DNA of 7,832 bases, from positions 1 through 7,832 of the forward strand of contig JAGTWP010000062.1 in assembly GCA_018260755.1 (NCBI GenBank). The letters run 5' to 3'. Position 1 is the stretch's first letter. Every line of letters starts with the position of its first letter. Below the pieces are notes generated by a model that saw only the letters and a program-made list of their open reading frames with translations, ran no database searches and had not been told where the DNA came from. The position numbers were made by a program, and so were the translations under genes. Shown here one piece after another: positions 1,010-5,804 of this stretch. The stretch comes from Candidatus Altarchaeum sp. Lineage in GTDB: Archaea > Altiarchaeota > Altiarchaeia > Altiarchaeales > Altiarchaeaceae.

Positions 1010-1639
1010 TTAATTTCCGCACGATTTTAACTTTTTCTCAGCAATCTCCCCATTCGGAGAAATTTCCGTAAATATAATTCCCTGAAATTTATAAACCTTT
1101 GTATCCTGCTTTAAATAATCATTTGCATTTAATCCTGCTTTCATACATGTTTCTTCCAAAAATTCCTTTTTGTTCCAGTTCCATTCAACGGGAACCTGCG
1201 GAAGCAGTAATCCGCTTCTTGCACCTTTTCTAACTATCAGTCCGTCCCTTCCTATTTCTATAAATTTTTCATATTCGTTTGGTTTGCATTTAATTAATTC
1301 GGGCTGTGTCAAAACTGTAACTTCAAATGTAACTTGAGATAATTCTTCTTTTTCCAACGGTTCAAATCTCGGATCTTTATAAGCTGCATATAATGAAGCA
1401 TTTTTCAATCCTTCCATTAAGGGAAAAATTGGCTCGGGAAATCCAATACACCCTCTTAATTCATGCTCAGGATATGTTTCAAGTGTTACAAAAACGCCGT
1501 ATTTCTCTGAAAATTTTTTTAAAATTTCTTCATCAATATGTTCCTCAATTTCATCATCTTTTTTATTTTCAAATACCTTTTCTACGGTTTTTCTTGCGTA
1601 TGTCACAAGAAATTTTCCAGCCCCTAAATTTATTTCCAT
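1010..1639 (-). CDS. AMMECR1-family protein
   Basis: A 209-residue protein matching the AMMECR1 family (TIGR00296 type), a single-domain fold widespread in archaea and eukaryotes and usual at about 200 residues. The signature LRGCIG is at residues 61-66, followed by YKDPRF (87-92), the FEVTVL strand (105-110) and LLLPQVP with WNW (144-155). The biochemical role is unresolved; in many genomes the family is linked with Memo and a radical SAM protein, neither of which is seen here. The start is preceded by no ribosome binding site, but a TATA-like AAATATAAAATAAAA lies ~25-35 bases upstream, directly behind the DprA stop codon. The gene could thus be leaderless with its own promoter as well as being last in the operon. 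It is probably a host housekeeping gene. Confidence 0.93.
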   Translation of the reverse strand: MEINLGAGKFLVTYARKTVEKVFENKKDDEIEEHIDEEILKKFSEKYGVFVTLETYPEHELRGCIGFPEPIFPLMEGLKNASLYAAYKDPRFEPLEKEELSQVTFEVTVLTQPELIKCKPNEYEKFIEIGRDGLIVRKGARSGLLLPQVPVEWNWNKKEFLEETCMKAGLNANDYLKQDTKVYKFQGIIFTEISPNGEIAEKKLKSCGN

Positions 1640-1680: not shown

Positions 1681-3318
1681 TTAAACCAATGTCATTTGAG
1701 TTGAATTTTGAGATCGCTTTTTCTTTTTATCCTGACTATGCAATATCCTGTTCCTTACACGATTCAGTTCTGTGTTTATTATCTCAATATCTTCGTCTGT
1801 TTTAAAGACAATATCTGCCTGTTTTTTTAAAATCAGGTGTGCATTGCCTGCTGTGTTTTCATTTTTGACGGGATGCTGCAAAACAATAAGTGCGCGCTTT
1901 TGTTTCTTACAAAAATTTACAGTATGCATAGTTCCGCCTTTTATGCCTGTTTCAATAACAAATACGCCCTGCGATAATCCGCTTTGAATCCTGTCTCTCA
2001 TTATTAAATGCTCGCGACTAATTTTTGTTCCATAAGGATATTCCGAAACGAGCGCACCTTTATTTTTAATTATTGCCTCTGCAAGTTCTTTGTTTTTAGC
2101 AGGATAAATTTTATCTAATCCATGCCCCACGACTGCAATAGTCAAACCACCAACATCTAATGCTCCCTGATGTGCGGCCGTATCTATTCCCTCTGCCAGA
2201 CCACTGGCTATAACATAGTCCTTTTTTGCAAATATTTCCGAAATTTTTCTTGCCATTCCGATACCATACTCTGTCGGATGTCTTGTTCCTACAATCGCAA
2301 TACAATTTTTGTTTAATGCCTCAATATTTCCTAAAATATGTAATAATGCCGGCGGGTCTGAAATTTGTAAAAGTGCTTTCGGATAATATGCGCTTTCTTT
2401 TGAAATTATCTGAATGTTGCGTTGTTTTGACTGTTCTAATATATCTTGGGACTTCTTCCAGCCGCTTGTAGCTTCTTGAAGAGTTGGAATGTATATTTTA
2501 CCAAATTTTGCATTTGCTTTTTTAAGTATTTCTATCAAATTTAACGGGTTATTTGGTTCGGATGTATCCTGAAGAGAGAGAATTTTTTCTATTGTTTTTG
2601 GCCCGATATTACGGGTTTCTTCCAATGCGAGCATAATTTCTACTTTCATTTTAACTGCTTTTATTTTTAGTATTTTTATTCCTGCTGGAATTTGTAATGC
2701 GAGCAATGCAACTAATCCACATCCGTGTTGTTTTAGCACAAATATTCCTGCATTTAATGATGTGCCTGTTGTTGTTACATCATCCACCAAAAGAATTTGT
2801 CTATCTCTGATTGTACCTTCATCTGCAACAGTAAGTGATTTTATTTCTTTACCTTGATTTCGCTCACCACCCAAATGCTTTTTAGGTAGAGTATATTTCC
2901 TTGATAAAATATCCGTTCCGTCAATTATATTATTCATCTTCAGGCATATTTGTCGGACAATTGTTCTGATGCCGGATTGATTTGTTCCCTTCCACTGAGA
3001 AGGCATAACACACATAACATATTCCGATGTATCTGAAAGAATGCCCAACAACTTATTTGTAAAGTATTTAATTGACTCTTCATAGTAGTACTTCTCATTC
3101 GTGTTTGATAAAGACGCCTCGTCTTTTTTTATATCAAGTATTTTATTAGAAAACTCATCCATATTCTGAAATGGCTTGCCGTGTTTAGGATAATATTTGC
3201 CAACGCATACCATCATATCTACTGGAATAAATTTACCTTCCGAATAATAATTTTGTTGTAATTCAGCCAATTTATTTTTTTCCTGCTCTTTGAACATTTG
3301 ACATTGCATTTTTCTCAT
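1681..3318 (-). CDS. PRTase (ComFC-like)-HhH-DprA fusion protein
   Basis: A 545-residue protein that joins parts usually found in separate genes. Residues ~30-200 form a type I phosphoribosyltransferase-like domain: a KYYP segment near 41, VMPSQWKG at 104-111, and the PRPP-binding loop ILLVDDVTTTGTS at 175-187. Residues ~228-248 look like a helix-hairpin-helix (TRNIGPKTIEKIL). Residues ~304-485 are the DprA/Smf Rossmann domain: IVGTRHPTEYG (342-352), ASGLAEGIDTAAHQGAL (371-387), EYPYG (426-430) and RDRIQSGLS (441-449). In bacteria DprA loads RecA on incoming single strands. Here the canonical SGSLITA reads KGGTMHTV (460-467) and the later PG reads HP (482-483), so it belongs to a divergent branch. 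No ComF zinc-ribbon cysteines are visible. The C terminus is basic (KKKKR, 531-535). The start is uncertain: M1, M4 and M8 are all possible, and none has a ribosome binding site. Confidence 0.88.
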   Translation of the reverse strand: MRKMQCQMFKEQEKNKLAELQQNYYSEGKFIPVDMMVCVGKYYPKHGKPFQNMDEFSNKILDIKKDEASLSNTNEKYYYEESIKYFTNKLLGILSDTSEYVMCVMPSQWKGTNQSGIRTIVRQICLKMNNIIDGTDILSRKYTLPKKHLGGERNQGKEIKSLTVADEGTIRDRQILLVDDVTTTGTSLNAGIFVLKQHGCGLVALLALQIPAGIKILKIKAVKMKVEIMLALEETRNIGPKTIEKILSLQDTSEPNNPLNLIEILKKANAKFGKIYIPTLQEATSGWKKSQDILEQSKQRNIQIISKESAYYPKALLQISDPPALLHILGNIEALNKNCIAIVGTRHPTEYGIGMARKISEIFAKKDYVIASGLAEGIDTAAHQGALDVGGLTIAVVGHGLDKIYPAKNKELAEAIIKNKGALVSEYPYGTKISREHLIMRDRIQSGLSQGVFVIETGIKGGTMHTVNFCKKQKRALIVLQHPVKNENTAGNAHLILKKQADIVFKTDEDIEIINTELNRVRNRILHSQDKKKKRSQNSTQMTLV

Positions 3319-3344: not shown

Positions 3345-4001
3345 TTATCCTGATTTCACTCTTCTTATACATTCATCTATGATGCAGTCGTTAAACCATT
3401 TTTCACTTCTTAAAATAATATAAGCATCTATTGCATGCTCTCGCGTTATCATTTTTTGAACAAATAAATTTAATACGAAAGCAGGGGTTGAAATAACCTT
3501 TAATTTTAAAATTTCTCTGTTTGTCCTGATGAGCGCATCATCCGAAAGTATGAAATTACAATTCCCGTTCAAAAAATGCGAAACAATTTCAAGTTCAACG
3601 TCATATAATCCGTATTGTTTAAGTTCTTTATTTTGATAAACCTTCTCTACCGAAATTTTTCCTGTGTTTATTAAATTTAAAATAATATGTGCTTCCGGCT
3701 CGTTGTCCTTTTTTTGTCTCTCAATTTCATCTGCAAGCAAAGGAGTTATAACCACATTGTAAAAATTTATTGCGTCTTCAATTATTCCTGTCTTCGTTAA
3801 TAGCAGCAAAGCAATTCCGTCAATACAAATTTTACTTCTGATTTTGTTGTCAAAATATTTAACTTCTCCCTCAATCTCTTTCATTCCTTCATCTTCGACA
3901 TTTGCCTTTATTTCTGCTTTCTTGTTTTTATTACTTTCTATTCTGCTTTCATCTTTATCCTTTCTTTTTAATATGTCAAACAGAGCCCTGAGATTAGCCA
4001 T
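3345..4001 (-). CDS. PIN-domain nuclease-like protein
   Basis: A 218-residue protein from the ATG at 4001. Residues 1-50 are highly charged (K/E-rich, likely flexible). Residues ~55-200 read as a PIN domain with the expected acidic set: D61 in KICIDG, E92 in ADEIERQ, D134/E136 in YDVELEIV, and D154/D155 in FILSDDALIR. PIN domains are Mg-dependent ribonucleases, as in VapC toxins or rRNA-processing factors. A further ATG at 4082 is in frame, but it lies inside the TATA box, and the added 27 residues (KKRI repeats) only translate a purine tandem repeat, so I prefer 4001. No antitoxin-like gene is adjacent. It is the first gene of the apparent operon, 26 bases before the DprA fusion, and its promoter carries a palindrome shared with the DinD-like remnant. 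The target is unknown. Confidence 0.8.
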   Translation of the reverse strand: MANLRALFDILKRKDKDESRIESNKNKKAEIKANVEDEGMKEIEGEVKYFDNKIRSKICIDGIALLLLTKTGIIEDAINFYNVVITPLLADEIERQKKDNEPEAHIILNLINTGKISVEKVYQNKELKQYGLYDVELEIVSHFLNGNCNFILSDDALIRTNREILKLKVISTPAFVLNLFVQKMITREHAIDAYIILRSEKWFNDCIIDECIRRVKSG

Positions 4002-4032
4002 TCTAATTTTTATTAATAAATTATAAATCTCT

Positions 4033-4068
4033 ATCCTTTTTTTTATCCTTTTTTTTATCCTTTTTTTC
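4033..4068 (-). repeat. Three 12-base purine repeats in the PIN leader
   Basis: On the minus strand AAAAAAAAGGAT is repeated three times (4057-4068, 4045-4056 and 4033-4044; the first unit begins with G). Every base but the final T of each unit is a purine, and the 12-base length keeps frame. The repeats lie just downstream of the TATA box, so they would form the start of the transcript, or encode KKRI repeats if the ATG at 4082 were used. Such runs are prone to slippage. The AAGGA strings could also serve as weak ribosome binding sites, though they sit more than 30 bases before the ATG at 4001. Confidence 0.8.
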
Positions 4069-4079
4069 TTGTTTTTTAT

Positions 4080-4099
4080 CATATATATTGTGACAATAG
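4080..4099 (-). promoter_or_regulatory. Palindromic operator plus TATA box of the PIN operon
   Basis: On the minus strand the perfect 11-base palindrome ATTGTCACAAT (4087-4097) runs directly into ACAATATATATG, a TATA box. A transcript would start near 4055, before the preferred PIN start at 4001. The same arrangement is found at 7438-7455. A palindrome touching the upstream side of a TATA box is the usual place for an archaeal regulator or an upstream promoter element. A weaker relative, ATTACAATATATTC, lies ~40 bases further upstream on the same strand (about 4125-4138). Confidence 0.6.
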
Positions 4100-4255: not shown

Positions 4256-4545
4256 TAAACGAATGTTTTTATTTCGTTAATTTTCTGCTATTTTAAAGCA
4301 ATTATTTTTTGCGTTAAGCAAAATAAAAATGTTGTAATAAACGAAAATAATTTATTCGCTAAATTTATTGTTTTAACGAAAGTTTTTATTGCGTTAAATG
4401 TTTATACTTTAACGAAAGTTTTTATTGCGTTAAATGTTTATACTTTAACGAAAGTTTTTGTTTCGCTAATTAATTATTTTTTAACGAAATGATTTTTTGC
4501 GTTAATTGTTATATTTATAGGCGAATGTTTTTATTTCGCTAAATT
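4256..4545. repeat. Array of eight imperfect palindromes, ~36-base period
   Basis: Each unit is a ~27-base stem-loop of the form TTTAACGAAAGTTTTTATTG followed by CGTTAAA, where TTAACG pairs with CGTTAA around a T-rich middle. Units start near 4256, 4294, 4338, 4372, 4408, 4444, 4480 and 4517; their left CG steps are 38, 44, 35, 36, 36, 36 and 37 bases. Units 4 and 5 are identical and share the linker TGTTTATAC; the outer units are more degenerate. Linkers are only ~9 bases and not unique, so it is not a CRISPR array. It may be a set of protein-binding iterons, a partition or origin site, or a structured non-coding RNA, since a promoter-like site points into it. Confidence 0.85.
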
Positions 4546-4868: not shown

Positions 4869-5804
4869 TTAAATTTTCCCGTTTTCCTTAAAACTGTAAT
4901 ATGTGTCGCCGATAATAACATGGTCAATAACGGAAATTCCGATAATCTCGCCCGTCTTAACAAGGGTTTCCGTAATTTTGATATCATCTGTTGAAGGTGT
5001 CGGATCATCGGAAGGGTGATTATGAACCAAAATTATTGAATTTGCACCGTCTTTTATTGCATCTCTAAAAACCTCTCTCGGATGAACCAGAGACGCATTT
5101 AATATTCCGACAGAAACAATTTTATCTGCAATTATCCTGTTTTTGGAATCAAGAAGAATAACTATGAAATACTCCTTATTATTATCGGGAATTTTATTGG
5201 AAGCGTACTCAAATACCTCTTTTGCATACTTTATTTTTTTCAGGCATTTCGATGCCAGATTACACCTTTTATTAAATTCAAATAATGCTTTGATTTGCAT
5301 TGCTTTTGCCTCCCCGATACCGTTTATCTTGTGGTATACTTTTATTTTTCCGTTTTCCTTTTTTAAAATATATTTGTAGGTCTCATCACTTGCGATTTCC
5401 AAAATCACCTTCTTTTCTGCTTTGTTAAGTTTGAAAGCAGCTGATTTTTCTCCATTTTTTATAATTATTGTTTCACCGTTGCCTTCTTTACTGATTTCCG
5501 CATTTTTCACCCAGTCCATTTTCAGGTCATCCTTCATATATTTTAGAAGTATCCCACTGTCATTTCCCGGAACATCATCCCAGCAAAAGAAATACACCTT
5601 GTGAAGTTCTTCAAACGACAAATTACTTAAATTACCAATTCCGTAAAATGAGATTAGACGATTGCACATATCAACAACATTTTCACCTTTAACTCCTTTT
5701 TGTAATATAATTGCAAGCAATTCCGCATCACTCAATGCAGAAGCGCCAAACTTCTTTAGCCGTTCTCTCGGACGATTTTCCGCAGGAATTTCTTTTATTT
5801 TCAT
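4869..5804 (-). CDS. radC: RadC-family JAMM protein with a ~88-residue insertion
   Basis: A 311-residue member of the RadC (UPF0758) family, which normally has about 220-230. The N-terminal part (1-70) has the standard RPRERLKKFG...LSDAELLAIILQKG start and is the first half of the helix-hairpin-helix region. Residues ~71-158 do not belong to the family; they are followed by the second half, INGIGEAKA (160-168). The C-terminal JAMM/MPN domain (from ~190) is complete: E244, then HNHPSDDPTPSTDD (261-274) supplying H261, H263, S271 and D274. RadC is no longer accepted as a classic repair enzyme; its role is unresolved, with a suspected link to mobile elements and recombination. The gene stands alone on the minus strand, 71 bases downstream of tRNA-Phe. 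A TTTTAAAC box ~35 bases upstream is a possible promoter; no ribosome binding site precedes the ATG. Confidence 0.92.
   Translation of the reverse strand: MKIKEIPAENRPRERLKKFGASALSDAELLAIILQKGVKGENVVDMCNRLISFYGIGNLSNLSFEELHKVYFFCWDDVPGNDSGILLKYMKDDLKMDWVKNAEISKEGNGETIIIKNGEKSAAFKLNKAEKKVILEIASDETYKYILKKENGKIKVYHKINGIGEAKAMQIKALFEFNKRCNLASKCLKKIKYAKEVFEYASNKIPDNNKEYFIVILLDSKNRIIADKIVSVGILNASLVHPREVFRDAIKDGANSIILVHNHPSDDPTPSTDDIKITETLVKTGEIIGISVIDHVIIGDTYYSFKENGKI

Follow-up and report, generated by a model that had tools for sequence, protein, structure and literature searches.

A DprA-like protein together with a phosphoribosyltransferase (PRTase) protects against T7 and lambda, and DprA homologues act as antitoxins in the shosTA, syrTA and rqlHI systems (PMC9122126). 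According to a passage of PMC12593503 that cites Pu et al. 2025, ShosT is the toxin, acting on purine pools, and ShosA is a DNA-binding antitoxin. The general scheme, in which a PRTase toxin perturbs purine pools and damages DNA and is paired with a DNA-binding DprA-like antitoxin, can be drawn from PMC9122126, from the same passage of PMC12593503 and, for the related RqlHI, from PMC4670107. Two modes of restraint of ShosT by ShosA have been considered, namely direct binding and repair of the damage. ShosTA has already been reported in archaea, the Asgard group having it more often than other prokaryotes do (PMC11291487). The solved ShosT has about 420 aa and includes an extra part, and the ShosT of phage PfAC02a is annotated as HAD plus PRTase. 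ComFC is a PRTase with an N-terminal four-cysteine zinc finger (PMC9005727). Fusion of a toxin to its antitoxin is known from the toxSAS protein CapRel, an example which establishes that a protein of this fused kind is able to sense phage (PMC9712102).

In this study, we focus on a protein encoded in a stretch of 7,832 nucleotides (hereafter the window), which is an entire contig of a MAG congeneric with 'Candidatus Altarchaeum sp. HURL_140'; the host, which had been taken for an archaeon, belongs by kinship to the genus Candidatus Altarchaeum. The protein is probably a single-chain ShosTA toxin-antitoxin or anti-virus system, in which the DprA half would restrain the PRTase until infection. 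ShosTA itself and its presence in archaea are already known, and what is new is that an altiarchaeon carries the system as a single chain; searches of the open-access literature yielded no description of a fused ShosTA.

Domain architecture and kinship with ShosTA

The gene, which is present as a single copy in its own genome, lies on the minus strand of the window at 1681..3309. Its frame is open for 545 codons (1681-3318), giving 545 aa if read from 3318; the sister genome G003 lacks an ATG at the position of the window's first codon, and hence translation most likely begins at the conserved ATG at 3309 (residue 4). The original prediction of a PRTase, a helix-hairpin-helix (HhH) and a divergent DprA in one chain is borne out by Pfam, by PADLOC and by fold matches. 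The N-terminal half (2695..3309, minus, residues 4-208) is matched by the PADLOC ShosT profile at residues 33-207 (E 2.2e-14), and by Pfam Pribosyltran at residues 163-205 (E 1.7e-5), where its 24.6 bits fall just below the curated cut-off of 26.3; the unfused homologue in the sister clears the same cut-off with 29.8 bits. The PRPP-binding loop ILLVDDVTTTGTSL (2755..2796, minus) is intact, and its DDVTTTGT is invariant in the altiarchaeal ShosT alignment. In the structure model of the whole protein the PRTase half is poor, with pLDDT below 50 at residues 188-220, and therefore a separate PRTase-only AlphaFold model (pLDDT 77) was built. Its best PDB matches include PurF, ShosT with PRPP-Mg (8zvc), ShosT with phosphate (8zvd) and ComF, and a PRTase fold of the N-terminal half is thus supported by modelling. 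The earlier designation of this half as ComFC-like has to be replaced by ShosT-type, as the first 45 residues hold only two cysteines and no four-cysteine zinc finger.

The C-terminal half opens with the HhH (2539..2649, minus; MLALEETRNIGPKTIEKIL). This element had been placed between the two domains; it is real, but it belongs to the ShosA N-terminus, since the same stretch opens the separate ShosA of the sister. The DprA/SLOG Rossmann core follows at 1810..2427 (minus, residues 298-503), where Pfam DNA_processg_A (PF02481) matches with E 2.2e-65 and the whole-protein model matches DprA (3maj) and ShosA (8zva). The PADLOC ShosA profile covers residues 227-510 (E 3.3e-76), a match that by itself does not separate ShosA from DprA, because ordinary DprA also scores high (Smf of K. 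aerogenes, 1.4e-59). The closest sequences in the PDB, 8zva and 9vzo, are both ShosA. As described before, the core carries KGGTMHTV (1918..1941, minus) in place of the SGSLITA of chromosomal DprA, and HP in place of PG (1870..1875, minus). These residues had been read as a sign of divergence, yet they are common to ShosA encoded beside PRTase genes on plasmids of Hymenobacter, Rhizobium and Sinorhizobium, and on the sequences compared they mark one subgroup of ShosA proteins. Chromosomal-type DprA, which is topA-adjacent in five records, has KSGSLITA and a PG-type sequence.

In a 42-row tree, the DprA half of the window clusters at 100/100 with five unfused ShosA proteins of altiarchaeal or related origin, and chromosomal DprA forms a separate group (99/99). 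Forcing the window into chromosomal DprA was rejected (p-AU 0.0019), in agreement with the earlier view that this half is not of the competence type. The window protein shares with ShosTA (8zva, 8zvb, 8zvc, 8zvd, 9vzo) a ShosT-type PRTase with an intact PRPP loop, an HhH/SLOG ShosA lying outside the competence-DprA clade, the order T then A, the motifs of one ShosA subgroup, conservation of both toxin and antitoxin halves, and defence-type surroundings. It differs in being one polypeptide where the known system has two adjacent genes in one operon, an arrangement present in all five of its closest relatives with readable frames, as well as in its archaeal host, its altered toxin C-terminus and its short ShosT, which lacks the extra part of the solved protein and may differ from it in chemistry. 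Because it is fused, we treat the protein as a variant of ShosTA and not as a standard member.

PsyrTA/RqlHI resembles the window protein in that a DprA-like antitoxin controls a PRTase toxin domain, but PsyrT has its PRTase fused to a RecQ-like helicase, and no helicase domain was found in the 545-aa protein by Pfam and PADLOC searches. Altiarchaeal relatives carry PsyrTA elsewhere. In other altiarchaea, a PsyrTA/RqlHI-like pair occurs at L024 4309-7367, L025 2371-8132 and L026 1-1559 (PsyrT E 1e-270), and in G003 the PsyrT shares a single 1603-aa ORF with an XPD/DinG-like helicase that has RQC and HRDC domains.

The fusion junction and other fused proteins

In the sister, which has 89% DNA identity, shosT ends in LALGKTQPE followed by a stop, and after a further 26 nt shosA begins in a different frame. 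Compared with the sister, the window lacks 2 nt near the end of the toxin's coding sequence, within its final codons (2690..2700, minus), and reads LALQIPAGIK... instead. The former stop TAA (2676..2678, minus) is thereby out of frame, and reading passes through the former leader into shosA. The shosA ATG (2647..2649, minus) is retained, now internally, within a 45-nt run identical to that of the sister, which only one other such run in the gene exceeds in length, and hence this codon may supply free ShosA as well. The two-gene relatives (G002, G003, G011, G027 and G295) have the canonical order, and their toxins end in ALxKT or ALxQT. Since two separate genes are the rule among the closest relatives whose frames can be read, the fusion is derived and, to the extent observed, confined to the window genome. 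The original prediction that a PRTase and a DprA-like protein are normally separate proteins and are fused here was correct, but the pair corresponds to the known partners of two-gene ShosTA. In the bacterial plasmid and phage records examined, the PRTase and DprA-like genes are separate and often overlap or adjoin. A scan of genome contigs with the whole protein matched only the sister and a Flexibacter homologue, and among viral contigs the scan found a single PRTase/DprA pair, which is unfused and has an integrase-like gene after it. In another Altarchaeum (G001, L023 8518-10211), ShosT and ShosA are each split into two frames, as pseudogenes or through MAG errors.

The deletion site is not a homopolymer. 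When the frame is restored, the toxin tail reads KFQQE where the sister has KTQPE, so that the invariant Thr is still gone, and the tail carries more substitutions than the background would predict (5/14, P about 0.01), a count made after the site had been viewed and hence only suggestive. For these two reasons the frame change looks old, and not like a base-calling slip. Pairwise dN/dS against the sister, an estimate shared with the sister branch, is 0.24 for the T half and 0.29 for the A half, and the changes on the window and sister branches (11 v 8, and 16 v 17) show no clear excess in the window. By these estimates, both halves are under purifying selection. The toxin could nevertheless be weakened, because the conserved C-terminal K-T has been lost.

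A sample of 394 archaeal genomes contained one other protein with both halves in a single frame (G151, 561 aa), and three more genomes of its class carry the fusion: G457 (91% identical), G466 (cut by the contig end) and G435 (626 aa, 36%). These proteins of 500-626 aa (L041 4177-5862, L084 2627-4309, L085 1-1503 and L086 2276-4156) resemble the window protein in having an N-terminal PRTase and a C-terminal DprA-like SLOG domain, but share only 28% identity with it and are conserved across several genera. In the tree their DprA halves branch apart (99/88), and they carry other motifs, so the fusion in this class arose independently. We tentatively propose, in the knowledge that the evidence leaves this slightly short of an even chance, that archaea have at least twice made two-gene ShosTA into a single-chain immune protein, a counterpart of CapRel whose DprA-like sensor exerts direct cis control over a PRPP-using toxin.

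Proposed mode of action and alternative explanations

In the mechanism that we propose, the joined protein would be produced as such, with the N-terminal PRTase as a toxin that binds PRPP and the C-terminal HhH and DprA-like half binding DNA and restraining the toxin in cis. Relief of this restraint might come from a viral product or from DNA intermediates that arise in the course of infection, as in fused CapRel, and the released ShosT half would then disturb nucleotide (purine) pools and harm DNA. CapRel likewise has an N-terminal toxin and a C-terminal antitoxin in one protein and has unfused relatives; its alarmone-synthetase-like toxin and its antitoxin are both unrelated to those of the window, and thus the comparison is one of analogy and not of homology. 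On this view, the fusion arose when shosT lost 2 nt from its final codons, its cassette lying within the PIN-AMMECR1 interval described below. A natural fusion with both halves under selection favours control inside one complex, and offers a one-gene construct for testing restraint and triggering. In addition, the window protein extends ShosTA to Altarchaeota and, together with the other archaeal class, speaks for convergent fusion in archaea.

Two alternatives concern the kind of protein. A competence or recombination protein, in which a DprA-type loader of RecA or RadA is tied to a ComFC-like PRTase, would account for the strong DprA fold and for ComF among the PRTase fold matches; it is highly improbable, as the tree rejects the grouping with chromosomal DprA, the SGSLITA and PG motifs, the topA or chromosomal context and the ComFC zinc finger are all absent, the window holds no com genes, and the copy in the sister sits among defence cassettes. 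The earlier suggestion of a function other than RecA loading is likely to be right. The further idea that a PRPP-binding domain and a SLOG pocket form a bifunctional enzyme making or sensing a nucleotide signal draws on the intact PRPP loop and on SLOG-fold proteins that bind nucleotide signals in some defence systems, for which a passage of PMC11204291 gives ThsA as an example. We consider it very doubtful, since a passage of PMC12593503 presents the characterized ShosTA as a toxin and its antitoxin, with ShosA binding DNA, and the adjoining genes of the window show no obvious signal-reading effector.

The other two alternatives accept ShosTA and concern the state of the gene. The fusion has been seen in one genome only, a draft MAG (85% complete, 78 contigs), and hangs on a single private 2-nt deletion; the copies in the MAGs of relatives (G001, G446) also have broken frames, and an ordinary two-gene ShosTA might have lost two bases in the consensus through an assembly or sequencing error. 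We regard this as quite unlikely in view of the non-homopolymeric site, of a tail that lacks the invariant Thr and has excess substitutions even with the frame restored, and of an ORF that is otherwise intact, with a clean two-gene copy at the same site in the sister. Alternatively, the deletion may have inactivated the ShosT C-terminus, so that the locus is becoming a pseudogene and ShosA is made from the internal ATG, as the loss of the conserved ALxKT end and the identity of the shosA start region to that of the sister might suggest. Such decay is unlikely, though it deserves consideration, because the pairwise dN/dS, which is shared with the sister branch, indicates no less constraint on the toxin half than on the antitoxin half, and because the toxin half has an intact PRPP loop and contains no stop codons. 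We therefore retain the single-chain ShosTA as the probable reading.

The PIN-AMMECR1 interval

In the window, the fused ShosTA gene lies between a PIN-like gene and an AMMECR1 gene, and all three are encoded on the minus strand. The PIN-like gene lies directly upstream (3345..4082, minus), and an 86% identical copy borders the corresponding interval in the sister; its assignment to PIN was made by eye, library matches being weak (PDC-S70 6e-4), and a PDB sequence search gave no match. At the other border, the AMMECR1-family gene (1010..1639, minus; PF01871, 1.9e-53) has an 89% identical copy in the sister. Between these two genes the sister (G003:C81, L018 3414-10998) has three tandem cassettes, consisting of an AAA ATPase with DUF4276, the unfused ShosT and ShosA, and again an AAA ATPase with DUF4276. 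The AAA and DUF4276 pairs resemble the PADLOC candidate system HEC-01. A full PIN gene precedes the first cassette and 3' PIN remnants precede the other two, with 67-nt PIN repeats at L018 4034, 5902 and 8235. The interval has the appearance of a defence hotspot whose cassettes come and go through recombination between PIN tails, and by this route the array in the sister may expand. This PIN-bordered array points to a hotspot that swaps different systems behind copies of one gene.

Other features of the window may be mentioned here. A RadC-family gene at 4869-5804 encodes 311 aa with the usual N-terminal and JAB domains, the stretch between them (about residues 70-150) matching no confident family; here an archaeon has RadC close to a DprA-like gene. 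Four copies of an AT-rich repeat spaced by 36 nt (TTTAACGAAAGTTTTTATTGCGTTAAATG...) occupy intergenic DNA upstream of the PIN gene, at 4336-4510. At the left end of the contig, positions 1-129 and 462-590 form a 129-nt direct repeat with 98% identity, possibly the site of an assembly break.
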